Shown piece by piece: positions 24,920 to 51,500 of a DNA stretch of 64,000 nucleotides. The stretch comes from Polytrichum commune (taxonomy: Eukaryota > Streptophyta > Polytrichopsida > Polytrichales > Polytrichaceae). The notes under the pieces are model-generated. The model saw nothing but the letters and a program-made list of their open reading frames with translations, was not told the DNA's origin and ran no database searches. How positions within the stretch are numbered: the stretch's first letter is position 1; each line of letters starts with the position of its first letter. The stretch spans positions 7,812,001 to 7,876,000 of the forward strand of contig OX485803.1 of NCBI GenBank assembly GCA_950295325.1, in the 5' to 3' direction. The position numbers were made by a program, and so were the translations under genes.

Positions 24920-25464
24920 ACACTCCCGTGACCAATTGTGCGGGCATTCATATGTGTACACAAAATTTAGTGCAACACTCAATATATAAAAGTGGCCAGA
25001 CACTCCCAATACCCAACGCATTGTCTTATATCAAGTCGGTTCACATGTCAACCATGCTCTCATTTTGCTTACCATGTCCACTTGCTTGTTTGCACCCAAT
25101 GTATGGTTCTTGTTTGTCCTTAGTAAATCCATCATCGAGCACTCCCCCATATATGGGTGGAACATGTAGTGCATAAACGATACGGCGGAAGCTCCATGTG
25201 AATGTTTTCGTTCTGTCTTGCATAACTGCTTCATGGGAAGCTGCCCCTTCATGTAACCTATTTGTCCTGCCCAAACTCTTATGTGACTGGACACAACGTG
25301 TAGGGCGCCTTTGTCTTGAATGCACACTCCCAGAGGAACAACCCATGTGTGCACCATGTAAATCCGCCCTTAAGGTATAGACACCCTATAACTGATAACG
25401 ATCCCATCACCGACAAGTAGAGTAGCTCATAAACGCGCATGGCTTTACTAGAAGTCGTTATGAA

Positions 25465-25475
25465 TATATATAAAA
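25465..25475 (+). promoter_or_regulatory. TATA box of the downstream gene
   Basis: TATATATAAAA is a strong plant-type TATA box about 290 bp before the ATG at 25763. It suggests that the following frame is a separate transcription unit rather than another exon of the FCP1-like gene. Confidence 0.5.
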
Positions 25476-25762
25476 CGCGAGGACAATATGACTGTGGAGG
25501 GGAAGTTGTTTCCCATAGATATTGTCGGTCATGTGTGAAGCTATGTGTTGGTTATGGGCTCTGACCGACTTTCGCACAAAGAAATTTTACACAATCAATT
25601 TTGAAAAAAGGGTCATTATTCATGAACCTTATTTTCCTACGCACAAAAAATAACTCCTCCTTGATATTCCAAGATATGCTATGCTGAAATGCTTAAGTTT
25701 TCGGTTATAGGTATATGTACCTTACATGTTGAAGCGTTATTCACACTTGTTCGTACTATTCA

Positions 25763-27053: not shown

Positions 27054-27356
27054 CTACACTAAATATGATATTTAGTGACACCAATTCTAATTGTCTTGCT
27101 CAATACTAATTGTAAACTACGGTATAGTGTCACCAACACTAAATGTTAACCCAACATTGTTTGTCGTTCCTCCTAAATTTTTTGGGGATTGGAGATTTAC
27201 AGTGTTGCAATTACTATCACTTACCAAGTGAAATGTCATCCAAATTTCAATCATCCATGACAGTATTTCGTTCATTTATTCATAAGAAGTGTCATCTGAA
27301 AAGTTACCATAGTGACATTAGATACCATATGACACTAAATACCATATTTAGTGTAG
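27054..27356. mobile_element. MITE family M1, copy 1 (CTACACTAAATATG ends)
   Basis: The ends are inverted repeats: CTACACTAAATATGATATTT on the left and its near complement, ending TATTTAGTGTAG, on the right. A related element lies in the opposite orientation at 55241-55591. The target duplication is not clear, so the superfamily is left open. Looser relatives of the end motif occur around 42660-42910. Confidence 0.75.
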
Positions 27357-31420: not shown

Positions 31421-31610
31421 ACGTCCATATCAGTGCCCGGGAAGTCTTTGGGCATAGTTGGTCAAGGTCCTAGTGATTCTAAATCCAGCCGATTACATGT
31501 TGACATCTTCCGGTTCTGTGTTATTCTTTTGAGGTATATATCATAGATTCCTCTACAATGATCGCTAATTCTTTTAAAGTCTCCAACGTCAACCGGTTCA
31601 TCTGTAAAAC
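31421..31610 (+). repeat. Dispersed repeat family R1, copy 2
   Basis: Shares ordered blocks with 20391-20600 and 55196-55790, including GGTCAAGGTCCTAGTG, TTACATGTTGACATC and CAACCGGTTCATCTGTA. Non-coding. Confidence 0.6.
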
Positions 31611-31732
31611 ACTATATTCGTTAAATTGAGACTTTTTGGGCATTTTGAGACATTCACATAAATAAGAACAAGGATAAATGGAACACATATTGGAGAAAGT
31701 TGTAAGATGCGAACACTTTGTGTCGGGTATTT

Positions 31733-32058
31733 AGAACAAGAACCCCATTAATAACTCATATTTGGGATTGTTTAGGATGCGCAATCCAAACCTTAGGCCA
31801 AATTGAAGGGGAAATCTTAAAACATTCATATTATCGCACACAAAATATGAGATCTTGTATGAATATGTTTTAGGTAGGGCACTCCAAACCCTTAGACCAT
31901 ATTGAAGGGGAACTATGTGAACCAATATAATATAACATACAAAATATTCCAAACTCATATTTGTGATGGTTTAGTTAGGGCAATCCAAACCTTGGACCAT
32001 ATTGAAGGGGAAATCATGTGACACTTATATTATTGCAAAAAAAACATACAAAGTATGG
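31733..32058. repeat. Three diverged tandem copies of a ~110-bp unit
   Basis: Units begin near 31733, 31850 and 31949. Each contains TTTAGG(A/T) followed by CCAAAC(C)CTT, then CCATATTGAAGGGGAA or close, then an ACATACAAA(A/G)TAT-like end. The CCAAAC parts look like decayed relics of the 22-bp palindrome seen from 34 to 45 kb. A related single unit lies near 41560-41660. Confidence 0.65.
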
Positions 32059-32155
32059 CATGTAAAATGCATAGCATGCTAACACCACACATACATTGGA
32101 TAGTGCGACCCAAAATGATGTTGCCTATGGCCCAAAACCCTACGCCTACTATGGC

Positions 32156-32963
32156 CTATCTAGCCTCGGAGATTGCCTCTTTTTCTTTTGCTTTTTTATC
32201 TTTTGCCTCTTTTTCTTTTGCCTCTTTTTCTTTTGCTGCGGCTTCTTTTGCTCGCATTGCTTCAACATTCCTGAAAATCTCCGCCCCGCGACTATAGCCA
32301 TTCTTGGGGTGACCGCCATCCATAAGACATTTTGGAGTCCGTCGGCCGCCCGAAATATACGTCGAAGAATTCGAATACGATGAAGTGGATTGTCTCGCAT
32401 TTCTGGTCATGGCGTACATACGCTCGAACTCGATGGACGCACTAGACCGCATAGGTTTACGGGTGGGAGCAACCTGCAACGCGTCATTGCAAGACCACAT
32501 GTGTTAGTTTAGGGAGGAAGACCCAAACGTGTCACACGATCATTTTTTAAGTGCAAAATGATTGTAATGCGCGGTTAACCATGTTTTAGAGAGGGGGGGG
32601 GGGGTTCACCTTGTCACCGGGGGCGTTCCCATCGGAGTTGGCAAGGAGGGGCAAGGCGTCCCGCAAAGGAATAGGAAGGGTTCCACTCTTCGTTGGCCGT
32701 GCGTCCATCCGCAGCCGCTGTTGAGGTGTAATACTTCCGCCGGGCCGAGAGGGGGATGTCCGGACGCATTTGCGATTTATGCCCTTGAGCGGCGACGGGG
32801 ACGGAGATCGCCGTAAGATTTGCTTGGGTGGGGGGCTATCGACGACGCCGGCGTCAATAGGCTCCTTGGAGTAGTCAATGGTTGACGCGGCGTCGTAAAC
32901 GGTCTCGTAGAAGAAGCTCCCCAACTCTGACTCGCTGACGATGTCAATCGAGGGCTCCAAACG
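32156..32963 (-). CDS. Unrecognised two-exon gene or 3' exons of FCP1-like gene 2
   Basis: Two frames join cleanly in phase 0: exon 32963-32610 ends GACAAG|GTGAAC and exon 32473-32156 follows GTTGCAG. The upstream exon is preceded by a pyrimidine tract. It encodes a Ser/Pro/Arg-rich segment (LRRSPSPSPLKG). The second exon encodes a Ser/Arg segment and ends in a Lys/Glu/Ala-rich helix of short KEKEA units. No domain is recognised. It may be the C-terminal tail of the FCP1-like gene just upstream, as gene 1 also has Ser/Pro-rich exons after its domain, but no donor joining them was found before the stop at 33103. Confidence 0.4.
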
Positions 32964-33071
32964 CTCGCGCAAAAAAGGAAACGAAACAAAACCCAAAGGA
33001 AGAGGGTTTGCTAGAGCGCGTGAAAATCAAGATACATATGAAGCATATATTACACAAAGTGGGCGGGCGCA

Positions 33072-33094
33072 TACACACACACACACACACACAC
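33072..33094. repeat. CA microsatellite
   Basis: An (AC)n run just after the stop codon of FCP1-like gene 2, in its presumed 3' untranslated region. Confidence 0.9.
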
Positions 33095-33102
33095 GTGCTG
33101 CC

Positions 33103-33915
33103 TCAAATGAGCTTGTTAAATTTCGCGTGAGAGAACAACTCTCTGTACAAATGGTCTCGTGGATCCAAGTATCTCTCGCCTATCGGATTATTCCTAACAA
33201 AATTGTTTACAGGTAGTCCGCTTCCCCTGAGCGCCTGGAGGTATTTACTAAGGTCTAACAAAAATCGGTCCCGGACCTTCTCGACCGTCCACGTAGGGCA
33301 AACTATTAAGTTGGCCGTCGGGTTCAACATGTTCTTTGCGGCGCTGTCGTCCACCATGAGCGTGTTCTCCCGGGTGGGACGGACGTCGTAGGGGACACCT
33401 ATCAATGACGGACGCTGGTCCCAAAAAATGGGCTTCAAGACCTTGAGGTATTGGGGGGAAGCGGGGTTGTTTGGTTTTTTGACGACTTTGCCGTCCGGTG
33501 TGTACAATATTCTACAGGCTTCCTGTGCTAGGACCATGCAGGGGGGCTCGATGCCCTTGAAGATGAACTCCACGACTGCATTGGTGTTCTCGGCCTTCAT
33601 GGAGCTCCACACGACCACCCACCATCGTTGTTGGGCGATCTGGAGGAAGGTCCGAAGCCACGGGCGGAGGTGAACTAGCTTGCTCTTTATGAACGTGGGC
33701 GGCCCGTCGTAATTCGCGTCCTCGGGTTTGCAAAAGGCCACTGTGGGGGTCCTCGGGCAATGAACGCATTGGACGAGGACCCCGTTGAGGTCTAACACCA
33801 GGAACCGGGTCTTAGGCGGCAAAGGTGGAACGGGTAAAATGGGGGGGACCATCGCGCTACCTTCCTCGCTTCTTGGAGAGGCCCGGCGGGGAGCCGCGAC
33901 GCTATGCTCCGATCC
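33103..33915 (-). CDS. FCP1/HAD-like phosphatase-domain gene 2 (DLNG variant)
   Basis: Paralogue of the gene at 22635-24919. An exon open from 33915 (acceptor CTCCACAG) to the stop at 33103 encodes about 270 residues; the first ATG in it is at 33852. FCP1-type HAD motifs are in order: VLDLNGVL (motif I, residues 19-26 from that ATG), VVWSSMK (motif II), a Lys before IFWD, and LMVDDS (motif IV). As in gene 1, the second Asp of motif I is Asn, so it may bind rather than dephosphorylate phospho-Ser/Thr targets. The N-terminus is Pro-rich (PPILPVPPLPP). Upstream exons were not identified. It lies downstream of the ParB/methyltransferase gene on the same strand, and a polyadenylation signal at 34105-34110 separates them. 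Confidence 0.7.
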   Translation of the reverse strand, partial: GSEHSVAAPRRASPRSEEGSAMVPPILPVPPLPPKTRFLVLDLNGVLVQCVHCPRTPTVAFCKPEDANYDGPPTFIKSKLVHLRPWLRTFLQIAQQRWWVVVWSSMKAENTNAVVEFIFKGIEPPCMVLAQEACRILYTPDGKVVKKPNNPASPQYLKVLKPIFWDQRPSLIGVPYDVRPTRENTLMVDDSAAKNMLNPTANLIVCPTWTVEKVRDRFLLDLSKYLQALRGSGLPVNNFVRNNPIGERYLDPRDHLYRELFSHAKFNKLI

Positions 33916-34104
33916 CTGTGGAGACGAGCGACATAAGGCGGGGGAAGACTATGTCATGCTATGTCCACTTAAAGTGAATACAATATTTTCTGTGAAAAAT
34001 ACAAGAACCACTATGCATAGGCGGCCATACAAATGCAAGAGGGGGCAAGAGGAAAAAATATACATTTGAACACGAAAACAAACATAAGGGCACAAAATAA
34101 TAAT

Positions 34105-34110
34105 TTTATT
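34105..34110 (-). terminator. Polyadenylation signal (AATAAA)
   Basis: AATAAA on the minus strand in an AT-rich context, about 285 bp after the proline-rich frame. It is the likely 3' end of the ParB/methyltransferase transcription unit. Confidence 0.45.
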
Positions 34111-34361
34111 GTTTGCAATGCTCTATGTACAAAATGCCTAGGGGTGCGAAGCCGCGTTGAACGATCCGTTCAAACTATCCTAATTCAACATCTACAAAAT
34201 TGTGTGCACGCCTCCAAGTTCGAGTAAAATCGTGGGACGGGCGACGTTAGTGATCGTCGGGGGGGGGGGGCTGAAGGGATGCGAGAGCGGATGGACGGGG
34301 TGGGGGCAGTTCCTCCTAGCTAGGGGGGACACGACCACGGCAACAAGACAATAGACCAGGA

Positions 34362-34383
34362 GTTTGGGTCGAGCGACCCAAAC
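34362..34383. repeat. Single palindrome copy in the presumed 3' UTR
   Basis: A perfect copy of the 22-bp palindrome (10-bp arms GTTTGGGTCG and complement, AG core), 11 bp beyond the stop of the proline-rich frame. Confidence 0.9.
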
Positions 34384-34393
34384 TGAGGAGGTC

Positions 34394-35050
34394 TCAGTGT
34401 ATTACCTCTCCCTGGTCATGCCTGGACGCCATGGAAGCCTCCACCGCCTCCGCTTGTCGTTCTCTCTTGCCACCGCCTTCTCCGACAATGTCAGCACCCC
34501 TCTCCTGCAAGCGCTCAGTGTCAGGACCTTCTCCTAACCCAACCTCCGCATGTGCATCATGCATAGGTTCATCGATTGGGATAGGAGTAGAGGTATCACC
34601 AGGCCCTCGAGGACCTTCAACATCAGGCATGGGTGTGTCTCTTTCAGACCCATGCTGGTCCATTGAAGACTGAGCGCTAACGGGGTTTGGGTCGGCCGAC
34701 CCAAACTCTCGTGCATCATGAGATTGGCCTTGTTGCACTGTAAGGGGGGGCGGGTTTGGGTCGGACGACCCAAACATGTGGGGGTCGTCCTGCTGATGGG
34801 GCGGGGGGATCACCAGGGGCGGCCGAAGTGGTGGGGGGGTCACAGGTCTAGAAGACCCGGGAAGGCGCCATATATTGGGGTCATCCGCTTGTTGAACCGG
34901 CGGATACGGACGGACGTGGGGGGGAACAATGTGCTGAAAGCTGAAGGAGGATTGCGGCACGGGCTGCGGAGGAATGTTCTGGGGAGGGAAGCCGGGGGGC
35001 AAGTGTGGAAATGAGCCCGGGGGAGCCACCACCAAACCCTGCGCCCACAT
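34394..35050 (-). CDS. Proline-rich frame in phase with, and directly after, the ParB/methyltransferase stop
   Basis: A 218-codon frame starting at ATG 35050, only three bases beyond the TGA (35054-35056) of the upstream gene and in the same reading frame. The N-terminal half is rich in Pro (PPGFPPQNIPPQPVP) and the rest is acidic and Gly-rich. No domain is recognised; it looks disordered. Two 22-bp palindromes (34685-34706 and 34754-34775) lie inside and are translated as FGSADPNP and FGSSDPNP without breaking the frame. Possibilities are a C-terminal extension lost by a recent stop, readthrough, or an untranslated frame. The continuous phase favours a former extension. Confidence 0.45.
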   Translation of the reverse strand: MWAQGLVVAPPGSFPHLPPGFPPQNIPPQPVPQSSFSFQHIVPPHVRPYPPVQQADDPNIWRLPGSSRPVTPPPLRPPLVIPPPHQQDDPHMFGSSDPNPPPLTVQQGQSHDAREFGSADPNPVSAQSSMDQHGSERDTPMPDVEGPRGPGDTSTPIPIDEPMHDAHAEVGLGEGPDTERLQERGADIVGEGGGKRERQAEAVEASMASRHDQGEVIH

Positions 35051-35053
35051 GCC

Positions 35054-38000
35054 TCAAATCACTTGCGTGATCAAGTCCGCACTAGTTGGAGGTTGCGCCA
35101 ATGCCCGCAGTCGCTCTTGCTCCAATAAGAGAGCCCTTAGCTCTGCCACTTCGTTCCGCACTGAGGGTTCTTCAGCAGCGGCCTTTTGCAAGCGGACGCG
35201 TTGTTCTTCGTCCCTTAACATCTTCTCGTTGGCTTCTTGCACGGTGAGGACTTCCGGCTTCACCTTCACTATCCCTGCGAAGGCACCTGGAGAGGAAGGG
35301 TCCGACCTGAGCTGTTTCGCGAGCTCCATGTCGTCCTCGTCTTCGCTGCTAATGGCAATTGTCTCCTCGATGGCATAGTCGCCATAGAGTTTCTTGCCTT
35401 TTAGTTTCCTCCTCTCCCTGAACGCGGCAGTCGCATCCCTGGAGTACATGTCGCGGGCATCATCAACCGTCAGGACGGGCACCAACTTACTTTGTGGAGT
35501 TGCTACCCGCATTGCCTTCTTTCGTTGAGGGGCTTCAGATTCCTGAGTGAAGCCTGTTCCCCCTTCTTCGACCTCGCCCTCCACTTTAGCCTCTTCTTCC
35601 TCCTCTTCCACCTCCTCATCCTCCTCCTCCTCCTCCCCCTCCTCGTCACGCGGTCGCCGAGAGGATGTGCCTGGATGCACTTGGACCAGAGGCTCTGGTA
35701 CAGCAACTGGAACCTTTATGGCCAATTCTTCAGGGTTGACACGCCTCGCCTTATCCAGCGGGCTCTCACCCCCTTCAACAGTCTCCTCGGCGTAGCTCCC
35801 AGGGATCCAGTCTAGTATATCCATCTTCTTCGCCAATGATTTTTGGGCCTTGTAGAATTGGATGTCATTAAGGTCTACATAGCTGTACACGTTCAGCCCC
35901 AGCATCTGCAGAAATCCCACCAGATGTTATTATATGGCATAACATGTGATTCCACCGAAAAGGGGAAGTACATACAAGACCTAATATCAATTGCAAAGGT
36001 TATAGTTTGGGTCGAGCGACCCAAACTAGCATCAGTGTTAGTTTGGGTCGAGCGACCCAAACTAGCATCGGTGTTAGTTTGGGTCGCTCGACCCAAACTA
36101 GCATCGGTGTTAGTTTGGGTCGCTCGACCCAAACTATGAAAACAATTATGGTAAGGAGCTTACCATGCCAGCGAAGACGGGCTTGGTGCCGCCGAAGACG
36201 TTGAATATACAGTCCCCTCTTCTCGTCAAGGCCCTCATTATTCGGAGATAGAATTCCATCCGCAACTCGTCCGAATGGTATATGGCATATTTTGCCTCGT
36301 CGTAGAGGGACTTACTTGCGCCCAGGCCTTCTGGAACTTGGAATAGTTTCTGCATCCGGGTTATGGGGTGGTTCTCCACCTTCAGCAAGGTTGCTTTGAA
36401 CACAAAGTACAAGCACAACAAATTCATGACTTTGGTTTTCTTGTCCTTTAGTGTCGTGTACACCCCCTCCGCCGGTGCAGCAATGTAGTGAGACTTAGAC
36501 ACCGCATACTCAGGCTGCAATTTCCTCACAATTTCATACACCTGCTCTGCTCTCCTATCCTCTACTATCCACAGCCACATATCGACCTCCCTAAGCTTAG
36601 GGCTTGCATACTCCACGAACTTCGACATGAAGGGCTCGTAGAAGGGTGTACCCATTGTGCCCTCAAACGTACTCCCAGGAATGCTCCGGAAGTCTATTAT
36701 ACCAAAGGGGAACCGGTCCGCTGCTCTTACTCGTATTTCTTTCCTGGAATCAAGGCCGGGCCATCCCTGGATTTTAATAGGGTCAAAAGCGACAAGGTTG
36801 AAATGCGCATCCCCCTCAAAACTTACAATCTTCTTCTCCTTTATAAAGTTTGAGAAGGCACGCGTCGAGTGTTCTGGAAGAGCCAGGTTCTTCCCACCCT
36901 TCACCAGTTTTGACTTTAGGAAGTCTTCTCCTGCCTCCCTGATCAGAGCTGCCATGGATGCACTGGTGAAGTTGTATTCAGCCTTGAACGCTCTCCAGTT
37001 CACCTCGTTCACCTCGTCATCGACAAAAATGTTCTTTTCCGGGATTAGCTTCTGCAGCTCCTGGACGATCGTTGTTTTCTTCTTCCTATTCTCCGCCCAT
37101 TCCTTCATTGTGTAGCATGAAGGAACAAAGGATTTCGGCTTGGTGAAGACTATTTTGGGGTACACCCAAAATCTCTTAGGGGTCGGGTTGTTGTGCAAGA
37201 TGTGCATTGCCGCCTTCCCCATTTCCGCCTCCGAAAGACCCTGCAGACTTCTAAAGAATTCTCTCATGAGAGGCTTCATCGCCTTGAATCGAGAGGACGA
37301 GTTGAAGAGGTTGCATGTGTCAGGATCCATGAGATCCCCTGTCTCGTGTTTCTCAAACACTGTCTTCCACTTCTGCCAAACCATGTCGGATGATGTAATC
37401 AAGTAGATCTCTCCTCTTAGCTCATTGTACTTCTTTTGCTTGTGACTTGAATTGTCAATTGAGGAGAACTTGTTTATCATTTGGTATTTGAAAAGCTGCA
37501 CAAGAGCATAGAATGCGTGTTAATTCTCAATATGTTGTTTCCAAACAAAGAAGAAAAATGATGAACAACAAACTGCGTAGACAAACACAAACTAAAACAC
37601 AAGGTTTGGGTCGAGCGACCCAAACTGTATGAAGAAACACAAGGTTTGGGTCGAGCGACCCAAACTGTATGAAGAAACACAAGGTTTGGGTCGAGCGACC
37701 CAAACTGTATGAAGAAACGCAAAGTTTGGGTCGAGCGACCCAAACTGTATGAAGAAACGCAAAGTTTGGGTCGAGCGACCCAAACTGTATGAAGAAACCC
37801 AAAGTTTGGGTCGAGTGACCCAAACTCTGTTTGAGAAACAATGCTCACCTCCCACTTTGGATTCTTGTCTTTTGCATTCTCCCTTTCCTTGGGAGGCCGG
37901 CCGTAGAACTCCCACACATCCCGCGATGCCATAATGTTCCTAATCCAAGAAGCTTGATATGCCCGCTTCTTGTTATTCATGTTGAAATAGCGGGAGATAT

Positions 38001-39177
38001 CGCTCAGCCGGGTTTCGTCGTCCGACCACACGACCAATGCCTTCCATACCTTCAATTTTTCCTTTAGACCATTAGGATCATTCCACTCCGTCATCAGTTG
38101 AAGTTTCTTTGAAGCTTCAACACTGTGCTGACCGTCAATCAGCCAAAAATCGCCTTTCTCTATAGAAGGCCACATATCCGGTGTAGGCATTCTTTTGTGT
38201 CCCTGAGGCATGACAACAATAGTCTGCCTATCATGTTTAAACTGGTCGCTCACCATCTGGGCGATTAACCAATCAACATACGCATCTTCCTTTGCCCGAA
38301 CGCACTTCTCTGGTGGCGCTAGGTGGCATTGTGCGATGTTGACATCAAACTTGAATTCTCTGCCCATGAAAAAACAATGTAAACACTTGGTGTCGAAATT
38401 GTTGAGTATTTTCTGGATCTCCGATGGCTCCACTCCTTCCCCGGGCTTGGGCATACGTAGCTCCGGTGAAACAGGCTCATCTGTCATGGCAGATACTGAC
38501 TCTCTCGGCCTCTTAGATGGTGTCGTCTGCCGGCTTTGTGATGGCGTCGGTGTTTCACTATCAGCAGGAGTTGTCGTAGATGTTGTTCTCCTCGAGTCAG
38601 CTGGAACCGGTCGGGGCTTCCTCACTGTTTGAGGTCTTGACGACCCTGCGCCCTCTTCAGCAGTCGCCTTGCGCCTCACAGCTTGTTGAGATTTTGACTT
38701 GCTTTGCTGGGTCTTGTTTATTGCGTTGATTGCCTGCTTAAGTTTAGTGAACCTGGTTGCAACCTTCGTGTTTGAAATGATCGCATCTATGAAGATTGTA
38801 TCCGGTTTAACAATGTCTGGCTCAGCGCAGGATTCCTTCACGTATACCGGATCGAATGGCTCGGCTTGCTCATGCATGAACATGTGCACATTTTCCAGAG
38901 AAGAGTTTTCCAGGATGACGTCAACGTGCTCTCCTAGAGCATGAACTGATGCCACCTCCCATCCCGTCAAAGCATCCCATGTGTGTTGCTCCTCCGTGCC
39001 AACCTTCAAAACAAGGAGGATTTTGAATTGAACTGCCTTTACTACAAGAAAGGACCATGCAATTACAAGGTCTTCTTTTGCTACGTAGGATTGGTTTTTA
39101 GGAGTTTCGTGCTCCTGCCAGATCGCGTCTGGTGCCGGCTTGAACCATCGTTCTCCAGGTCTTTTCTTGGGGGGCAT
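35054..39177 (-). CDS. ParB-like domain fused to a degenerate N6/N4 DNA-methyltransferase-like domain
   Basis: Three exons, all phase 0: 39177-37849 (ATG just after a TTGCAG acceptor), 37495-36164 and 35905-35054, giving about 1,170 residues. Residues 345-352 (WLIDGQHS) match the DGQH motif of ParB/sulfiredoxin-like domains. Exon 2 resembles a beta-class (permuted) DNA methyltransferase. Its likely motif I, GDCIFNVFGG, is followed across intron 2 by MLGLNVYSYVDLN, like FxGxG plus the acidic motif II. The expected DPPY motif is replaced by IIDFRSIPG, so methylation activity is doubtful. Residues 160-250 are Ser/Thr/Pro-rich. The C-terminus has an acidic Glu-rich run and a coiled-coil-like segment. 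Both introns are filled with tandem palindromes (36005-36134, 37604-37825). Domain calls are by motif only. It could be a domesticated or mobile-element protein. Confidence 0.7.
36005..36134. repeat. Four palindromes, 36-bp period, in intron 2
   Basis: Four perfect 22-bp palindromes start at 36005, 36041, 36077 and 36113, separated by a 14-bp spacer TAGCATC(A/G)GTGTTA. The first two have core AG and the last two core CT, as if half the array were flipped. They fill most of intron 2 of the ParB/methyltransferase gene. Confidence 0.97.
37604..37825. repeat. Six palindromes, 40-bp period, in intron 1
   Basis: Copies start at 37604, 37644, 37684, 37724, 37764 and 37804, all with core AG, separated by an 18-bp spacer TGTATGAAGAAAC followed by CAAAG/ACAAG variants. 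The last copy has one arm mismatch. The spacer is unlike those of the other arrays, so this array grew locally within intron 1. Confidence 0.97.
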
Positions 39178-39201
39178 CTGCAAGTAGAAATACATATGTT
39201 A

Positions 39202-39957
39202 GTTTTGGTCGGGCGACCCAAACTCTTTCAAATCATATAGGCTTATGTCTGGGTTTAGTAACATTTATATATGGGGTTACTTTTCACAGGTTTGGGTTGA
39301 ACGACCCAAACCTGTGCCTACAATGGCTAATGAATAATATATTATTTGGCTACGAAAACCAATCTTTAAGTTCATGGATACAACAATCATCACGAGCTAC
39401 TGTTCTAGTTGTGGGTCATTTCATTATTGCTTGGGTGTTTGAGTTGTTGTTTATAAGTGTAAGTATTGTTTGTAAGCAGTAAAAATTTACGCAAAGTTTG
39501 GGTCGTTCGACCCAAACTTTGTAGCGGTATGGAATGATCGGCTATGGCCTTAGATCATACCCAAGATGATGATTACCTAAATTATGAATTACCATTTCAT
39601 GCGCTGTTTGGGTCGAACGACCCAAACTCTGCAGATGGATTGGGTCGAGTGACCCAAAGCATGTGCTAGTTTGGGTCGAGCGACCCAAACTCTGCAGATG
39701 GATTGGGTCGATAGGGTTAGATATTCACCCAAGATGATGATTAAATTAATTATAAATAAACATTTGATGCGGAGTTTGGCTAAACCCTAGACCCAAACAA
39801 TGCTTATGGTTTGGGTCGAGCGACCCAAACTCTGCAGATGGATTGGCGCCCACGACCCAGAGCATCTGCTAGTTTGGGTCGAACGACCCAAACCATCTTT
39901 AGAGTTTGGGTCGAACGATCCAAACCAGCTGGAGAGTTTGGGTCGCTCTACCCAAAC
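39202..39957. repeat. Scattered palindrome cluster upstream of the ParB/methyltransferase gene
   Basis: Full or near-full copies lie at about 39202, 39290, 39496, 39606, 39669, 39809, 39872, 39904 and 39936, plus partial ones near 39640 and 39700. Cores vary (AG, AA, TT, GG, CT) and some arms carry mutations. TCTGCAGATGGATTGG recurs between copies. The cluster lies in the 5' intron or promoter region of the gene that starts at 39177. Confidence 0.9.
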
Positions 39958-40559
39958 CAGCTGCAGAGTTTAGTGTTTTAGGGTTTCAAACTGAAGTTTG
40001 GGTCGTCTCTCGAAACACTTTTGATTCCAGAGACCTTTATAATGTGTTTACGCAGCATATACAATGCTTATGCATTGTAGATGCTGCGAAACTCTAAAGA
40101 AATTGACACACATAAAGAAGTTGAAGAAATCACCTTGCTTTGCAAACTACACAACAAGCTGCTGTTGGAAGCAGTTCTAACAAGCTAGTCTTGGAAGCTG
40201 ATTCTAGAAAGGATTGGATATCAGAAAACTAAGAACGCCTCACAAACATTCACTCTGAATTGAAGAAGCTTTCACAAACATTCACTCTGAATTAAACAAT
40301 CCCTCACAAACATTCACTCTGAATGTAACAAGTGTTTACAAACATGAACAAAGAAGCTATCTGAAGGCCACACATGCATCCTGATTTTCGAACAATCATT
40401 CTAATTCCGAAATCACTCTACACTCACACATGAATGTTTCTAAGACCAGGAGGAACTGACACAACCACTTTGAAACAACACTCACACTCCAAAACAACAA
40501 AGACGTTCTGAAATGGCTAAAATGTATAGACTTTAATACAAAAACAAACCCTAAACTCA

Positions 40560-40980
40560 TACTACACTCAGAACTCGGTCAATGCGCACTCAATGAACAA
40601 CAAAATAGATCAAAAGAAGAGGAGGAGTGAAAGAGAGAATGAGATAATGATGAAGAGGGAAGGAGAGAGGGAATGCGAGTTCGACAAGGAGAGAGAGAAT
40701 GCAAGGGAGGAGGCGGCGCTTTCAAGAGCGGCGGCGCCTCCAGAAAGTATGAGGAACGTACAAAGGAGGAGGAGCTTGGAGCGGAGGAGAGAGAAGGAGA
40801 AAGTGCGGAGGGGAGAGTGAAAGGGGGAAGGTCACTCAAGGGCGGGACCCATTCGGGCCGGCGCCTTTCGTGTCCGTTCGGCTCATGGCCGCCACGTGTC
40901 ACGGGGCGCTCCATGGCCCAAACGAATACACAATCTGAGCCATTGGAGAGCCCCAAGCCCATCGACGGTCGATAGGCCTC
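40560..40980 (-). promoter_or_regulatory. Pyrimidine-rich (minus strand) probable leader or promoter region
   Basis: The minus strand reads as long CT-rich runs for about 250 bp, like plant promoter Y-patches and leaders, followed by a GC-rich stretch. It lies about 1.4 kb before the ParB/methyltransferase start, which is preceded by an intron acceptor, so a 5' untranslated exon here is plausible. No TATA box was singled out. Confidence 0.3.
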
Positions 40981-42446
40981 GCAGGTGGGTATCCTTTAGC
41001 CACCTATCCCATACCATCCTTGAGGATACTAAAAAACCTTTATAGCCTAAGGTTTTTAATTTAATGGTCCCCCGATGGATTTGCTAATATCAAATAATGA
41101 AACTGTATTGGTTTTGTAATTTTAGTAATCTACACATATGCATGAATCGAGAATGATAGATACTAGACTAAGAGGAGTATTTAATAATTATATTGCAATC
41201 CTCGTAGGCAATTACATAATGGAATAATATAACTATGGTAACCATTTACACAATGAATGGTTTCGAGTTATATATTGTAATTATCTATGAAGGTTGTTGG
41301 TAAAGGACAATGCTATAGCCTACGATGGATCCGTTAACACATACCATTGAACTAAATCTAATTATACAAGTTTATGTAGTGTCATTCATTATAATATGGA
41401 ATTATGCAATATTAAGTGTTGACAACTTAATATCATTGTTGTTTGCGAAAAGCAACAAAGATGTTGTTTGATTTATAGCATGATGGAACATTAACATACT
41501 TATTTACAAGTTTACATATTTATGAGATACAAATATATTGAAGCGGGTGTTTTTGCTGAAGAACCCAATTAAGAACTCATATGAAGATGGTTTAGGTAGG
41601 ACGACCCAAACATTAGACAATGTTGTTGTTGTTCATATATTTAGTTGAGACAAGATAAAGTCTACAAATATTGAATATAGTGATAGTAAATGAGAGAAGC
41701 ACCATGTATACAAATATGAAGCTATCAAATACTAATATGTGGAGTTCAACATTATATGAAGCCATTTAAGCAATCACTTTGTTGTTGGATGATCCCTCCA
41801 CATATATTAAACAACATATCTTATTAGGAAATGAGGCACAAATTACAGTAGATGGTGTTCTATATGGAAGCCACACGGGTAGGTCACTCTAAGGCATTTT
41901 TGTGCACCACGTGCGGCTCAGGGTTTTTTGTTTTGGGGCTATTTACCTTCAAGGGTTGAATTAAAGCCTCCCTATAATTACTTGAATTTCAAAAATGGCC
42001 CATTTGTTTGCACCCTTCCATTACTTATATTGTCCAAGTCACTGCAATTTTTTGTACTCTATATTCCTTTTAAGTAATAAAAGCTAATCTACTTCATGTT
42101 AAGGGAAACCATGGAAACAAAGAAGGGTGCAAACAATAATATCATTGCAAACAAAGTTATGAAGAAAACACATAGGAGACCATAGCAAACATTATACTAA
42201 ACATACCTTCTAGGAACCTTATCTTCAGCCCCTATATTAATTTTACAAAAAAATAATGGCCCACATTTTATGTCCATCTAACTTACTTATAATGGGATTG
42301 TCTACATTTAATGGCCCCTTCATTATTTGGAATTCCTTTATAATTTTTATTTCAAATGATTTCAATCCTCTCTATATTATGCCGCACGTCGTTTTTAAAA
42401 TGCACTAAGTGACCTACCCGTGGGAAGCAACCCTGAACAACTACGA

Positions 42447-42478
42447 GGGTGTAGGGTGTAGGGTTTAGGGTTTAGGGT
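42447..42478 (+). repeat. Telomere-like TTTAGGG motifs
   Basis: GGGTGTAGGGTGTAGGG followed by two GTTTAGG units resembles the plant telomere repeat. It is short and interstitial. Isolated telo-box motifs also occur near 12415, 11630 and 44070. Confidence 0.6.
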
Positions 42479-43587
42479 ATATAAATGTGTCTTGTTGCAC
42501 TCGAAGCCATAAATGAATGGCGCATAGGTCAAATGAGGGGGCCAAGTCGCTTGTGGTTCTAAAAACAAATGTATATAGATATCACAATAGTCTAATTCAT
42601 GAACATGAACGTTGGTTACATTTCATGTTATGTTTGTTATGTATGTTATGTTACGTCGTAGATGCGTTCATATTTAGTGTATAAATCTCTAAATATCTTA
42701 TTTAGTGTAGTGACACTAGAACACACCAACATGTATTTAAGGACATGTTCTGCTCAACTTGCATTGAATAGATACAACTATATATGTTTAGATTTTTCAT
42801 CAAACATTTGTTAAAACAAATAAAGTTGATTACATTTTTTTTGGTAAGCCAAATCAATAAAAACTATAGGTACAAAACACAACTACAATAAGTATGATAT
42901 TTAGTGTTTGATACACTAAATACAAGTGAATACACAATATATCAATAACCATATGAAAGTAATAAACATTAAATATAAGCTATAGTAATATGTGGCATTG
43001 ACATGTTTGAATTTAGTGTTAGTAAGGATGTGAAAAGAAGAAATATACGTGAGAGTAGAAGGTAGCAACACATTTACTTCTAACACTAACTGTCATAGGA
43101 TTGAAAATTAATGTTGAGCATGTAAGGGTGGTAACCATAGTCCGCCAAGAGCCTAAGGCTAGTGTAAATGCAGCCTACAAAATTTGTGACTTAGCCTATA
43201 AAATTTTGAAAGTGTAGGACAAAGAGCCTATGGACAATTTTAAAACATAGGATATCAACCTATGTGGTAAAAAACATGTAGGAAATTTTGCCTACAAAGT
43301 TTTTAAAAGAGCGGATTTTAGCCATTCATCCTTCTTCAAATTGGGAAATTAGTTGGCCTAAGTACATATCTTTAGGCTAATACTCGGGGCTCTTGAGTGG
43401 CACATAGGCGGATATCAATAATAGCCCTGACTCCCTCCCCGTCGATCTTTACAAATACCACAGCCCAAGCCCCATCACCGCATAGAGGTTGAATCAGAAG
43501 ATGGTGAGGACTTTCACCCTTAAACTCATTTGAATTTTAGCAACCTTTCATAACTTATAATCAACTCTTTAAAAAGGAGTTGGTTAA

Positions 43588-43642
43588 TCCTTGGCCTTCA
43601 AACGTGGTGAAGGGCTTAGCCAGGTTCAATTCCTGCCAAGGA
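43588..43642 (+). other. tRNA-like relic
   Basis: TCCTTGG at 43588 pairs with CCAAGGA at 43636-43642, and between them lies a good B-box GGTTCAATTCC (43623-43633) in a short CAGG...CCTG stem. The total is only about 55 nt and no anticodon arm fits, so this is a truncated tRNA or SINE relic rather than a functional tRNA gene. Confidence 0.35.
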
Positions 43643-44350
43643 TACCACTTAGTACTCAAATTTTGAATTTAAAGCCTACAACATTAAAAGATATGAAGGA
43701 TTTTAACCTACTAAAAATTAGTTTTAAAGGCAATTGGCAGGTAACTTAAAAACTCAAAAGGTTTTCAACTTACAAAAATTTGATATTGTAGGATGCAACC
43801 TATGCCATGAGGGAAATAGCCTATGCCCTTTTAAAGAGGTAGGCAATTAACCTCAATAACTTCAAAAACTTTTCGGACACTGGTGGTAACAACACTACAT
43901 ATAATCAAATCCACACATCATATTTTGTGTAGTTATTTAATAGCGGAATTAGGAGGTTAGTTGTCCAAGGTCATTTGATGGTTGGCGCCACGAAGAGGCA
44001 AGCTAAATATGGATGCTCTATTACCAACAAGAAGCGGGAAATTCTGTCAGAAGGTTTGAACTTAGGTTTAGGGTTTACGTTCGGGCGGGAAAGGGATCCA
44101 AAGAGGAAGGCCAAGGCGGAGGCGGGTAGTATAAAGTACCAAACCCCCCAAACTTTGCTCCTTTTTTCTCATCTCTCCATTCTGAAATGGTTGCAAGCTC
44201 TCTCAAGTAGTGGTGGAGTGCAAGGTTCGTGTATGCATCCGTTGATGAGTAGCTAATTACAACAGCCATGCACGGCCTGAATTCTTCCAATTAGTATCCA
44301 CGTAGCTGAATATGGAAGATTACCGCAATTTAAGGCATAATTTGCGGAAT

Positions 44351-45261
44351 GTTTGGGTCGCTCGACCCAAACCCACCCCCATAGTGAGGTTTGGGTCGAG
44401 CGACCCAAACCCACCCCCATAGTGAGGTTTGGGTCGAGCGACCCAAACCCACCCCTATCACGGGCTGGGCCTGGATTAGCAAGCCCATCCTATCACGAGG
44501 TTTGGGTCGCTCGACCCAAACCCACCCCCTCTCACGGGTTGGGCCTGGATTAGCAGGCCCATCCTGTAACGAGGTTTGGGTCGCTCGACCCAAACACACC
44601 TCCATTGTGAGGTTTGGGTCGAGCGACCCAAACCCACCCCTGTCACGGGTTGGGCCTGGATTAGCAGGCCCATCCTGTCACGAGGTTTGGGTCGCTCGAC
44701 CCAAACCCACCTCCATTATGAGGTTTGGGTCGCTCGACCCAAACCCACCTCCATTATGAGGTTTGGGTCGAGCGACCCAAACCCACCGCTATCACGCGCT
44801 GGGCCTGGATTGCCAGGCCCATCCTGTCATGAGGTTTGGGTCGCACGACCCAAACACACCTCCATTGTGAGGTTTGGGGCGAGCGACCCAAACCCACCCC
44901 TGTCAGGGGTTGGGCCTGGATTAGCAGGCCCATCCTGTCACGAGGTTTGGGTCGAGCGACCCAAACCCACCCCTATCAAGGGCTGGGTCTGGATTACCAG
45001 GCCCATCCTGTCACGAGGTTTGGGTCGAGCAACCCAAACCCACCCCTATCAAGGGCTGGGTCTGGATTACCAGGCCCATCCTGTCACGAGGTTTGGGTCG
45101 CTCGACCCAAACACACCTCCATTGTGAGGTTTGGGTCGAGCGACCCAAACCCACCTCCATTGTGAGGTTTGGGTCGAGCGACCCAAACCCACCCCTGTCA
45201 CGGGTTGGGCCTGGATTAGCAGGCCCATCCTATCACGAGGTTTGGGTTGCTCGACCCAAAC
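44351..45261. repeat. Seventeen-copy palindrome array with two alternating spacer types
   Basis: Seventeen copies of the 22-bp palindrome, most with perfect arms and core AG or CT in mixed order. Spacers are of two kinds: a short one of 16 bp (CCACCTCCATTGTGAG) and a long one of about 51 bp that shares the first bases and contains its own inverted motif GGGCCTGGATTAGCAGGCCC. The array ends 192 bp before the ATG of the DUF7869 gene, so it lies in that gene's promoter or 5' intron. Confidence 0.97.
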
Positions 45262-45453
45262 CCACCCTCATGCACACAATGGGGATGTGCATAGACGGAT
45301 CCTGAATAAACTGTTGTGCGCTCCATCTTTTTGGAACCCATCGATATAATATTCATACAACATGTGTTATGATAAGGTTTCTGTGTTTTTCTATTGGACC
45401 CTATAGCTTTTGTCAATTCTTTACAAGGTTCCATGTTCATGTGTGTAGGCAAA

Positions 45454-48400
45454 ATGGATGGGTATACTGGAAGAGGGTATTCGTCTGGAGAAGACATGGC
45501 CACTTGGCCATCTGCATCTGAGGAAGAGCTAGACATTGTCGGGGAGGCTACTATGGATGAGAGTTCAGATGAAGAGCATTTCGATATACCTTCGCGTTCC
45601 GTACCGGACTGTCCCATTCCAGAGTGTGCCGTGCTTTCAAGAGCTTCATGGGTGAATTTGGATGTGTTACTTCTTAATGACAATGGGGTTGTTGTGGCGG
45701 AGGGTATCTGTCGTAACACCCATCCACAAGATTGCATTGATCAAAATCCGCTTGGCACCGAGGACGTTGGGATTGTCATATTGGAGTCACTCGTTCCTTC
45801 TGAGGTGGATCCCACTCATAGGTTCTCCCTCCGCAGGTGGCCATTGAGGAATGTCACGACTGATGGAGTTAGCTTGCGTGAACATGAGCAACGACACATG
45901 CAACTCGAAAAGGAAATGCAATCAAACATGCGGCCACGCAAGGGTCAAAGAAAGTACGATACTGTGGCACGTCCTTCTCCATCTGCAACTGATTGTAAAC
46001 GTCAAAGGCTGCTTGGGGAGGAGTCCATAAGAGAAGTTGTCACAAAGGATTGTTGTGTGCATTGTTGTTGCCAATTGTTTCCAAGGGATAAATTGAAGGC
46101 CATCCGTGAAGAAATGTGGCTTGGAGATTTTCGTCTAAGATCCACAAAAAAACTTGATGTCCATAGGGCAATACATGTGAATGGGACGGGTCGCAAGGTA
46201 ATCACCATTGAAAGCATAGACGTGTGTTGTAAGGCATGGTACACCATTTACGGTGTGTCGAAGGCGGACTTCTATAGACAAGCTGCTTATGCCAAGGAAG
46301 GCCGCCGGTCCCGTCACCATGGGAACGTGGGTTTAAAGAAACCTAGGGAAGCAACAAGGCAAGCAACGGCAACTCTAGCAACCATCATTGTCCCCCTTGC
46401 TGATGCAATGCCGCACAAAACACGCACACTCACAACTGGTGAAAAGGTTGTGGAGAAAGTTCTTCCCACAGGCACAAAATGGAAAGACATATTGTTGGAC
46501 GTTAATGCAGTTGGCGAGAAGATTGGGTTGGAGCCAATTTCATTGTCAAAATTAAGTGCAATCAAGAAACAAAACTTTAGCGAATACATTACAAAAAGAC
46601 GAGGGGACAAATTTGCCAGGTGCTCTAATTGCGAGAAGTTGAAGCGCCTCCGGGATGCACACACGATGGGTACCGAGTCATATGCAGCGCATCAATTGAA
46701 CTATTTCAAGCACGTAAACATGCAAGAGGCACACCGTAATGATTACTACACAAATAGAGCTTTGTCCATCTCCAGGCCCTTGGAGGTTCTTACGGTCATC
46801 CATGACAAAATGGACCATGCCAAAACAGCCTCCCCATGTTTTGCAAATCGAATCAAGGCCACGGATGGGTTTTTTAAGTTGCCTGTATCGGTTACAGGTG
46901 AACTTCGAAACAATGTCATGACATACCCTAAATGTTGTGGTTTTTTATTCCGTGATGTACTGGAGAACATGGATTCCTTCATAATGGTTTATTCATACAT
47001 AGATGCTAATCACGTTGGGTTGGCATTGCAGGAATGATTGCACATGGACACGGTGATGTCAAGTTTGCTCATTATGCTCTTGATTTGTATCCAGCGGATT
47101 CAAACCACACGATAGGATCATTTGCAAGGCTTTTACGTGATTTAGAGAAACCACCAGCCTATTCTTCAGGATTGTTATTTGAGAACACGGGTTCAACACC
47201 TTTATATGAAGCGGTGTTGGATGGAAAAGATGTATGCTTGCATTCGTTGCCCGAGCCACCCAATGAACCCGTGATTGCCAAGAAGTTGCCTCCAACTTTG
47301 CGTGTCCAATTGGACAATTGTGCCAAGGACAATAAAAGCAGATATGTATTTGCATATTGGTCGTTGTTGGTTGCGAAAGGCATTTTCAAGGAGGTTTTTG
47401 TGTCCTTCCTATTGGTAGGCCACACGCACGATGATATTGATGCATCTTTTGGGCGGTGGAGCATGAAGTTGCGGGAGGAGGATTTTCCTACAATCCCATT
47501 ATTGATGAAGTCGTACATGGATTTGGAGAACGTTCCCGTCATCCCCCATATGATTGAGGAGGTGCCAGACTTCAAGGCATTTATAGAACCTTATATTCGA
47601 AGTGGAGCTCACCGATTGATCGGGCATACGAAGGCACAACAATTCCGGTTCTACATGCGTGACGATGGTGTCCCGGCCATGCAATACAAGTTGTTGTGCA
47701 CGACACAAGACTGGAGCCCGCCGGAGGGTCTTCTTGTGTGGCGCGTGGATGCGGATGGGAAGACCATGTTACCGGATGGGGAGCCTAGCCCTTGTAAGCC
47801 AATAGCCATGAAGAATTTGGAGGATATTTTGAAAGGTATATCAGGCTTCATACAATATTGGGAGAGTTTGAAGATAGCGGATGTTGGCGGATCATGTTGG
47901 CATCGTTATGGGAGTTGGATACATTATTGGACACGTGTTCGTGCCGCCTTGGTAGACCTCCACCAAGATAGCCCTCATACTTTGAGGCATGGATTTTGGC
48001 CACAAACACGAGTCGATGTACAAGCTTCAGAGGCTAGTCTTTTGGGAAATGGAGAGGTTCGAGAGGAGTTTGATGTGGACGACCATTACGTGGGGCCTGC
48101 TAGTAGTCGTCCGCCACCATCTTTCCGCATTGCAGTGGATTGTCATGAAGGATATATGCTCATTTTGCGTCCTGGAGACGAGACATATGTGAAGCCAGTG
48201 TGGGTGGCAAGAGCTTTGTCCAAACCCAATTTTGTAACTTCCAGCCCTCATTTTCGACAAATACAAGTGGAGTACTACCGACCGACGGCAAGGAATGAAG
48301 ATGTGATTCGGCATTATACAGGCTGGGATACAAACCCTAACTTTCGGTGGAAGGTGGATTCTGAGCACGGTCCATCTTGGGTAGATACAGATTCCATATT

Positions 48401-48518
48401 CATAGCATATAAACCACGGAAAAATCATAGTGGATCAGTGTCCATCCCTCAAAAGTACATAACTTTTGCAAAAGACAACCTTGCTCGGATCGCAGAAGAA
48501 GCAACCCACGTTGAATGA
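45454..48518 (+). CDS. DUF7869-type transposase-like protein
   Basis: Two long frames carry one protein. The first starts at ATG 45454, five bases after acceptor TGTGTGTAG, and runs to a TGA at 47035-47037. The second runs 47034-48518 in another phase. An 80-nt intron 46952-47031 (TTCC|GTGATG ... TTGCAG|GA) joins them in phase and gives 994 residues; otherwise a frameshift must be assumed. The N-terminal region is acidic. A Cys-rich segment (CCVHCCCQLF ... DVCCKAWYTIYGVSK) is followed by a CSNCEKLK motif. The second part has the DUF7869 signatures VQLDNCAKDNK and VGHTHDDIDASFGRWSMKL, with conserved Asp residues reminiscent of an RNase H-like transposase core. The family is multi-copy in seed-free plants to my knowledge. 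The palindrome array lies just upstream. Confidence 0.7.
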
Positions 48519-51500
48519 GAAGTTGGTAGGATTGTGTTAGCATGATTATAGTGTAAACAGTAATTCTACGAACATATATTACTCATATGTGTGCTCTTCA
48601 AAATTGGGGCAGAGTTTGGGTAGAACTTACGAATACTATATTGTTTTGGAGTTGGATGAATATCCATTTACTATATTTCAATACAAATGTGAAGTTCATT
48701 TTTTTATTAAGTTTGGGACTAAATTGTCCATTGAAAAAATATGCATTTATTACATGCACTTTGTATGTTGCAATGTCTATATTCTATGGAGCATGCTAAT
48801 AATAGAAATCATTATATATATATATTTGGGTGAAACTTGTTTGGAGTGCTCTACCCAATGTGTTTTTGTTGATGAAATTGGTGTTGAGTGCTCTACCATA
48901 TGTGCTTATGTCCGCACATCATAGGTGTGGGATATTAGAACATTTAATATATTTGAGATTGTTGACAATATAGTTTTAGGCATCTTCATGTTGTTTGATC
49001 CATATATTAATTTGAGACTAGAGAAAGTCTCAATTTAACGAATATAGTGTTGTAACTAACCACCGGTTCTTCCCGGACATAGGTCCATGTTACTATGAAA
49101 TGGAAACTGTGTTCTAAAATGGAAAATTAATTTATCATTGTTGTATGTTTACGAAGTTGGAGCGTGTGTGTCTTTTTTTTGTTTGTTTGTCTATGGCGAA
49201 GTTGAAGTTCTACTATGAGCATGTATCCAAAGCCGGAGCTTTCAGTTATTACTCAAGATGACGTCAAATAGAGCAGTAAGTTTTTCCCTGCAACATGGGG
49301 AGGCGGTTAACCCTCCACCTCCTAATTTATGACCATGTCACCAGTGGGAAGGGTAAGGTCTGATGGTAGGTTACCCTAATGCTAACATTGTTGTTGAGTT
49401 GGCTTTACCGGTAAATCAAAAGTGGTCTAAGTGTGACTATAGAGAGGGATTTGTTACATATGAGCATACTTCTCGTCCACCATGTGAAAGAAAAATCTAC
49501 GTATGTTTCAAATTCATCATGCTAGACTAATTTGGGGTTTTTGAAACCGACTCTAATTTCAAATTATTTTAAAGAATAGTCTTAAACCTTTTGCATTTTG
49601 TTTTGAAAGGTTCTCGTTGGATAAACGAGAGGGTACTCTTGTATGCAATAATTCCCCTCCGCTGGTGTGAACCAAGGTGAAGTTACCTACAAAGTTAAAA
49701 GTTACCTTTCAAAAGATACCACTATATGCCCTACCTATAAGATTGGTGGGGACCCAACTCAAAGAGCAAGACATCTAGCCCCACTCCATGGACTTGTGGG
49801 TAACTTGTGTAGTTGAATAGAAGCCTCCACACCCGCTTGATATTTTTGCAGAGCGGGAACCTGATTGGTGGAACATGGGCGTTAGGCAGCCAACATCACC
49901 TCCCTCTTACAAAATGATGTCCCCGAGTACAGGAGTGTTCCATTCACACGGCAACGCATGTATTGGCTACCATATATACCCAGATCAACCACTTTTGTCA
50001 AAGGCACCTCCCGACATCAGCGGAGGTGAAAACAACAATCTCCAAGGTTTTGGCGATGCCAATGGAGGCAAAGTTAAGTTATGGCAACAAGGAGGGGACC
50101 TGCAGCCATGCAATGTTGCCAAAACGGAGTCGGAGATTTTGGATTCTTTTTCTTTTTCTTTTCTCTTTTGTTTTCCTCTCTCTCGTTTGGTGTGCGCAAA
50201 CTTATGTTGGAGATACCCAATTTGTCATAGCTGTTGATATGGTTTACAGCCTGTGTGAATACATGTAATATTACTGGCCAACAAACAAAGCGCCATTAGT
50301 AGTAGTACGTCCCAGAGGGCTCCATGACTTATAAACATGATTGCATTGCCTCTAGGTAGTTTTGGATCGAGTACCTCGATTCAGCTGTACCTACAGTTTG
50401 CAGCAAGCAACCGCTAAGTAGTGGTAGCATTCAGAGCCATCTTTCAATCATGCCTACCGATGATATCTCTAGCCAACGAAAAAATCCTCCTTTACAGCTC
50501 GCTGAGTTACGGGAAGTAGTACACCTAATTATGTACCAGGTGGAGCTCCAACTCATATACGGCCGTAGTTTCCTAGCAGCTTGGGCACAAAACATATGAA
50601 TAGAAAGGGTGTCTAAATTTTCTAGGGAATTATTGACTTGGTTTGTCTAATTTAGAATAAATGAATAAGAATAATTATCAAATTATAGAAGTTCAGCTCA
50701 CATGTGTTGTGTTTCAATAAATTAGTCATTCTAGCACTTCTAATTCATCATCTTTCACAAATGCAAGATATCCTTCACACATAACAAGCCATGTCACATA
50801 ATAAGCTAGGTGCAACTAATGTGTAGCTTCGGAGGTGAAGGTAAAGGTTTAGGGCAAATCAACCGTCTTAGGTGGAATTAGTAATAGCCATCTTAAAACC
50901 ATAAGAAAAACTTGGACGAACGTCTAACTTATCTTAATTTAATTTTGAGATTACCTGATTTTGATATATTTATTATTTTCCAAGCCGCCTAATTGTTTTT
51001 GTCACTTTAATTAATTAGTAGGCATACACCCGCCCAAGAGGGTAGAAATCTACAGTAACATGTTCAAATTTGTTCACGTTTAGTTTTGAAACATTGGATT
51101 AATATACACGATGGAGCTAATCTATAGATGTATGTGGAAATAAAGGAATTTCTATTCCCATTCACCCATCCATTCATCCATAGTTGTATCCTGTTGTATA
51201 CAACTACTACTAATCTACTTGTATGGAGAATCAAGATTAGATGTTAAAATCATGTGAGTAGGGCTCGAAGTATACAAAACTGAGGCAGATTACTGAGGTG
51301 CACAATAATCACCGACATTTTCCATCCCCAGCCAGATCCCTCAAAAAATCTGTGTTGTTGTGGGGGTCATAATGTTGGAGGATACGATGCGATACGATAC
51401 GAGCTGGATGTGTTGAGTATATTCTGCCCACGGACGTACTAGCGAGTCCAAATGCGATTTTATTTCTTTGAATCAACCAATTTCTGAAGTCTGCAAAACC

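Follow-up and report, generated by a model that had tools for sequence, protein, structure and literature searches.

In a 64,000-nucleotide stretch of the genome of the moss Polytrichum commune (assembly GCA_950295325.1, contig OX485803.1, positions 7,812,001 to 7,876,000 of the forward strand; hereafter the window), one 22-bp palindrome is repeated 41 times between window positions 34362 and 45261, inside a 17.4-kb DNA transposon. Judging from sequence comparisons, the palindromes are a family-specific tag, probably a protein-binding site, carried in the non-coding parts of this large transposon. We further propose, with a probability of roughly 0.6, that they are dimeric binding sites of a protein encoded by the element, most likely its accessory protein, and that they would serve self-recognition or epigenetic control. 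Five observations bear on this proposal: the position of the palindromes, their geometry, the conservation of their arms, their specificity to families of elements, and an accessory protein that diverges faster between families than the transposase does.

Palindrome arrays in a 17.4-kb transposon

The palindrome has the form GTTTGGGTCG-NN-CGACCCAAAC, that is, two 10-bp half-sites around a 2-bp core, and is called W below. Allowing up to three mismatches to GTTTGGGTCGNNCGACCCAAAC, we found 41 copies, 31 of them exact, and no match in 100 dinucleotide shuffles. This bears out an earlier, sequence-only reading that had described one palindrome family in this interval. The same reading saw no intact copy elsewhere in the 64 kb and was right in this too, as no match at the same threshold was found in the remaining 46.6 kb, beyond the transposon. 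Among the 31 exact copies AG or CT cores predominate, with AA, TT, GA, GC and CA also present; the AG, CT, AA and TT cores had been reported before, whereas GG, also on that list, is seen in a single copy that carries a mismatch.

The host element lies at 31608-49051 on the plus strand and was delimited by its terminal inverted repeats, a 4-bp flanking duplication and alignment to two further copies, A (C1:612001-632000, reversed) and B (C1:2106001-2136000). BLAST of the window against copy B gives a common sequence at 31605-49055, bounded by the 28-bp inverted repeat AACACTATATTCGTTAAATTGAGACTTT. This repeat, at 31608-31635 on the plus strand (left) and 49024-49051 on the minus strand (right), is identical at both ends in the window element and in copy B alike, and the flanks of both copies examined (2/2) read as 4-bp target duplications, GTAA in the window and ATAA in copy B; for copy A, the stretch compared stops short of the element's end. 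In copies A (C1:0.62 Mb) and B (C1:2.11 Mb) the palindrome clusters keep their order and their places relative to the genes, and therefore the clusters travel with the 17.4-kb transposon, while the arrays vary between element copies in period and copy number.

Bacterial REP/BIME sequences and mitochondrial GC clusters are likewise short palindromes, present in many copies and clustered, and on this model the sequence-only reading had taken the palindrome itself for a tiny mobile unit. The constant gene-relative places in A and B do not support that idea: here the palindromes move as passengers of a large transposon and occupy equivalent positions from copy to copy. Belonging to a larger transposon is the outcome that this reading had itself named as counting against it, in the case of a known transposon; no established name for the element was found.

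The transposase region, at 45376-48518 on the plus strand, consists of two overlapping open reading frames (ORFs; 45376-47037 and 47010-48518), and DUF7869 (PF25273, E = 1.2e-42), at 47277-47702, is the sole Pfam family assigned to them. In copy A, an insert of about 1.5 kb interrupts the transposase gene; it matches the inner part of a stretch bearing W arrays, L038, at 97% identity. The accessory gene runs on the opposite, minus strand and, with splice sites and frame placed by eye from the sequence, has three exons and a predicted product of 1170 residues. Exon 1 (37849-39177) carries a GQH motif and looks ParB-like by eye, exon 2 (36164-37495) has a C-terminal part that looks methyltransferase-like by eye, and exon 3 (35054-35905) ends with a stop codon at 35054-35056. 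The frame stops there in the window and continues in A and B, by about 200 residues in B.

Most palindromes flank or interrupt these two genes. Seventeen stand directly 5' of the transposase gene (44351-45261, with a 38/73-bp period) and ten directly 5' of the accessory gene (39202-39957, some of them 31-32 bp apart). Six occupy accessory intron 1 (37604-37825, 40-bp period) and four intron 2 (36005-36134, 36-bp period). The different periods agree with what had been noted from the letters alone, namely that each cluster has its own spacer and multiplied locally. The other four copies comprise a lone degenerate one with two mismatches between the genes (41590-41611) and three past the accessory stop codon, one of them 3' of the gene at 34362-34383 and two that lie 69 bp apart (34685 and 34754, together 34685-34775). 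In copy B, the equivalents of the last two sites lie within the open frame and are translated FGSxDPN.

A search of the genome (408 Mb in 64 contigs, 406 Mb of it in seven of them) returned 9,231 exact W palindromes, and none for the reversed control. When half-sites were paired at any spacing from 0 to 12 bp, 9,402 pairs were obtained, 9,231 of which (98.2%) are spaced by exactly 2 bp, again with none in the control. At the three sites that can be aligned among the window element, A and B, 60 of 60 arm positions are identical in each pairwise comparison, and 2/6, 5/6 and 2/6 core positions are identical by pair. The surrounding columns are identical at 412/533, 371/509 and 372/509 positions, a divergence of 23 to 27%. 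At this background identity, the chance of finding 60 arm positions unchanged is roughly 2e-7 to 6e-9 for each pair, a figure that treats as independent positions that are not, and that comes from three sites.

Palindrome types across related elements

A first genome search with DUF7869 gave 1,491 candidates, of which 150 were scored, and from these we picked loci for diversity, four taken as 17-kb stretches and 20 as 4.2-kb pieces. At least five palindromes of the same 10+2+10 form were present in 4/4 long stretches and 13/20 short pieces; of these 17 loci, two have W and 15 another type. Five types were distinguished: W, C (CCCACGGGTG), T1 (TTTACGGACG), T2 (TTTACGAACG) and G (GGGTGAGGCA, with variants). 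Exact copies of two types never occur in one locus (0/27 DUF7869 loci), and loose cross-matching is limited to T1 and T2, which have a single base difference in each half. Exact copies number 644 for C and 4,099 for T1 and T2 together in the whole genome, where the 20-bp pattern of the G type has 254 forward and 239 reverse matches.

The letters change from type to type while the places remain. In W, C, T1 and T2 elements alike, both gaps between accessory exons contain palindromes, and so do the regions 5' of the accessory and transposase genes. When T1, T2 and C elements were followed over longer stretches, with gaps judged from ORF order, the gap equivalent to intron 1 holds 1, 2 and 4 palindromes and that equivalent to intron 2 holds 3, 2 and 4, respectively. 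The G elements have one array 5' of each gene. As the palindrome is thus replaced family by family in related elements, selection on a recognition site fits better than a self-seeding repeat.

Which property of the palindrome is kept can be read from its imperfect copies. A sample of 162 W copies, 127 of them exact, was drawn from the window element, A, B, the loci L021 and L025 and a second transposon type described below. All 44 substitutions in it affect one arm, without a compensating change in the other (CpG transitions account for 11), and therefore it is the letters, not the base pairing, that are kept. Complementary two-sided changes are found in the other types, five in T1, four in T2 and three in C, against 55, 38 and 26 one-sided changes; non-complementary two-sided changes occur once in T2 and once in C. 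The cores are not random either: a pyrimidine-purine step is present in only 1 of the 162 W copies (CA), and 45 of 55 T1 cores are CG.

Homologues of the accessory protein were found by tblastn, with exon 2 as the query, in A, B and the T1, T2 and C elements. The exon 1 motif reads FWLIDGQHS, and its GQH is invariant across W, T1, T2 and C. For the G type, hhalign of the protein against the GQH domain gives a probability of 93 (E = 3e-7). Within W, accessory proteins are 78 to 86% identical, and transposases 80 to 90% in the exon-1 part and 91 to 98% in the exon-2 part. Between W and T, these values fall to 28 to 39% for the accessory exons, 57 to 68% for the exon-1 part of the transposase and 78 to 86% for its exon-2 part. 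T1 and T2 share 40 to 51% in the accessory protein and 78 to 88% in the transposase, and W and C 24 to 28% (over short stretches) and 38 to 56%. From family to family, divergence is thus greater in the accessory protein than in the transposase, a relation also seen between VANC and VANA.

Palindrome types partly follow the transposase phylogeny. In a DUF7869-domain tree built from 27 rows and 142 columns, with 14 of 22 inner branches unresolved, C elements form a clade with two array-poor relatives (100/100), and the G elements lie in a separate clade together with four array-less relatives (100/100). A T1 clade (93/88) is nested in T (95/100), with T2 unresolved around T1, and W is not resolved as a single clade. 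Palindrome labels are clustered on this tree, requiring 10 changes against a mean of 18.0 after shuffling, with 0 of 200 shuffles as low, a contrast that is inflated by near-copies.

The W palindrome is also present in a second type of transposon. Arrays with a 32-bp period lie at C1:2.15 Mb and C1:0.47 Mb, and the inverted repeat AACACTATATTCGTTAAATTGAGACTTT was not found around them in the 7 and 4 kb searched. The element at C1:2.15 Mb has minus-strand ORFs with a weak SWIM match (E = 0.076) and a plus-strand gene whose product combines a DGNHR motif with a methyltransferase-like stretch. In NCBIfam this protein weakly matches two methyltransferases and CmoA (E = 0.035-0.2), and in the PDB it has no match; compared with the accessory proteins of DUF7869 elements, it gives a 51-residue match to the C type (E = 0.011) and nothing weighty against the W profile. 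The second type also has a palindrome of its own, CCCTGTGCGT-TA-ACGCACAGGG (locus L037, C1:2153501-2160500, from 4160 on), with 21 copies at up to four mismatches in a 20-kb stretch, five of them exact, and 461 exact copies genome-wide. A relative carries yet another, GGGTGGCCGT-TA-ACGGCCACCC (locus L042, 340-1003), in eight copies, one exact. In 4 of 20 further loci, three to eight W palindromes stand beside a transposase of the second type. Given W in two transposon types, some palindromes may have moved between elements. A similar case is AT9TSD1, in which VANC6 motifs occur although the element is unrelated (PMC5735166).

Proposed self-recognition and its alternatives

How might such sites work? 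The dyad-symmetric site, with its two 10-bp half-sites and 2-bp core, would be bound by the accessory protein as a dimer, and with arrays placed in introns and 5' regions the protein would be able to recognise copies of its own element. Recognised copies could then be kept expressed or be epigenetically marked, as VANC does for VANDAL elements. If the specificity of the protein changed, tandem duplication and turnover would exchange the sites all over the element, and each lineage would end up with its own palindrome. The binding, the identity and domains of the binder, and the epigenetic outcome are what we infer in this scheme. A wider version, which we hold tentatively and consider somewhat less probable than its negation, would see a self-recognition code of giant transposons: an element-encoded ParB-methyltransferase-like protein would read a 22-bp palindrome of two half-sites, distributed over the non-coding gaps of its element, and so mark related copies or release them from silencing, with at least five specificities within DUF7869 elements and a second type that has palindromes of the same form (CCCTGTGCGT, GGGTGGCCGT), some of whose copies look as if they borrowed the W system.

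Several results weigh against self-recognition through the accessory protein. Its assignment as ParB-like (exon 1) and methyltransferase-like (end of exon 2) was made by eye, and in Pfam no family reaches the cut-off (lowest E values: YEATS 0.015, SPX 0.028, HTH_70 0.14, and DUF6551, which we take to be ParB-like, 0.16). Profile searches of the PDB gave at best E values of 0.25 (VP2) and 0.43 (Cas1), and neither these nor Pfam returned a significant match to an N4/N6 methyltransferase domain. The catalytic DPPY-like motif is not evident; the supposed equivalent stretch reads DFRxIPG, and catalytic activity of this part appears doubtful. Single-sequence AlphaFold models had confidence scores (pLDDT) of 33 and 36, and their folds were not used. 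In G elements, the GQH domain is the only detectably related part of the accessory protein. On the side of the sites, 6/20 short pieces lack an array and 1/20 has one degenerate copy, some palindromes lie within open frames (at 1403 in a C element, at 1324 in a T2 element), and two C-type loci, F692 and F677, have 10 and 8 palindromes and no accessory-gene match in 17 kb. Finally, W also occurs in the second transposon type, next to a dissimilar DGNHR protein, so that motif and accessory protein are not strictly one-to-one. Other searches added little: PDB sequence searches gave nothing useful, nor did scanning four window ORFs against NCBIfam and PHROGs, and among viral contigs 86 pattern matches yielded no confirmed relative of the accessory protein.

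The strongest competitor, still an unlikely one, is that the palindromes are sites of the transposase, or of a transposase-like regulator, where the transposition complex assembles. In CACTA (En/Spm) elements, the subterminal TNPA repeats are short sites of this kind for an element-encoded protein, within a few hundred base pairs of the ends. That palindrome types partly follow transposase lineages, and that a large array lies directly 5' of the transposase gene, would suit such a role. The outermost palindromes, however, lie 2.7 kb inside the left end and 3.8 kb inside the right, many belong to the accessory gene's introns and 5' region, and the exon-2 parts of W and T transposases retain 78 to 86% identity while their palindromes are wholly different. 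The moss sites thus differ from those of CACTA elements in being internal and palindromic, and the transposase is another one.

It is considerably less probable that the palindromes are neutral or selfish tandem repeats, spread without function by replication slippage and conversion. Period and copy number do vary between copies, as the fast turnover of such repeats predicts, but arms unchanged beside sequence that has diverged by 23 to 27% (three sites, three copies), a core fixed at 2 bp, and palindromes of the same geometry at corresponding places in related elements are difficult to reconcile with the lack of a function. We give slightly less credit again to the idea that the elements recruit a host transcription factor, for which the palindromes would be the sites; the use of W by two transposon types would be explained, but with five or more distinct palindromes among related elements, several host factors would be needed. 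Least probable are RNA hairpins or DNA cruciforms, acting as processing signals or sources of small interfering RNA, for although the 10-bp stems are perfect, ten window copies are intronic and T1, T2 and C have their few complementary two-sided changes, none of the 44 W substitutions is compensated and one-sided changes are far commoner in the other three types.

Self-recognition by an accessory protein has its closest parallel in the VANDAL elements of Arabidopsis. There, VANC21 binds arrays of YAGTATTAY in introns and other non-coding regions, and VANC6 has other motifs (PMC5735166); the arrays turn over fast, and the transposase is conserved while VANC is variable (PMC5735166; PMC10398659). 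The moss elements share with them family-specific arrays of short motifs in introns and 5' regions, fast array turnover, an accessory protein more variable than the conserved transposase, motifs that differ between related families, and a motif shared by an unrelated transposable element. They differ in that the moss site is palindromic, 22 bp long and always built around a 2-bp core, where the VANDAL motif has 9 bp and is arrayed in a single orientation, that the transposase belongs to DUF7869 and not to the Mutator-like (MULE) group, and that Pfam scans of the accessory protein gave no match to DUF1985 or DUF287. With different transposase and accessory domains, the moss system is a parallel to VANDAL/VANC and not a member of it, and anti-silencing in the moss would be an extension by analogy.

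A second parallel concerns the accessory gene. The giant DNA transposon Sola1-1_Ec32 of Ectocarpus has an opposite-strand ParB-methyltransferase gene of 1104 residues, close to the 1170 residues predicted here; similar genes exist in other algal transposons, and a role in binding and modifying the transposon that encodes them has been proposed for such proteins (PMC12477816). The ParB-like GQH motif and the methyltransferase-like end of exon 2 are likenesses seen by eye, the domain match being non-significant in the moss, and the comparison bears on the accessory gene and not on assignment to the Sola1 superfamily. The passages of PMC12477816 consulted describe no cis sites. If our proposal is true, the palindromes supply this cis half, the target sites of ParB-methyltransferase accessory proteins, and VANC-style arrays of family-specific sites arose in an unrelated transposon. 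At least five protein/site specificities in one genome would then make the co-evolution of DNA-binding proteins and their sites directly testable, and the pairs might yield sequence-specific tools for chromatin. Literature searches found no paper on DUF7869 and, for ParB methyltransferases with moss and palindrome, unrelated papers only; for the palindrome letters, all of the matches listed were unrelated by title.

Other features of the window

The 17.4-kb element also carries, on its minus strand, a 281-residue ORF for an NLI-interacting-factor-like (NIF) phosphatase (33103-33948; PF03031, E = 1.2e-15), which is present in copies A and B. An inverted repeat inside the element, at 42671-42922, resembles small repeats of about 300 bp at 27 and 55 kb. 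The long inverted repeats 27054-27330 and 55250-55591 had been candidates for the ends of an element and were rejected, because each is a small unit bounded by CTACACTAAATATGATATTTAGTG-like ends of its own; the inverted repeats of about 300 bp at 27054-27357 and 55243-55597, with these ends, are probably two separate small non-autonomous transposons.

Elsewhere in the window, CACTA-type genes occupy 8004-11881 on the minus strand, with matches to Transposase_21 (tnp2, E = 1e-72) and DUF4216 (E = 3.4e-7). A second NIF-phosphatase ORF is found on the plus strand at 22992-23825 (E = 4.5e-8), followed downstream on the same strand by a 314-residue ORF without a Pfam match (25733-26677). The ORFs at 22992-26677 may be part of another element with a NIF cargo gene.

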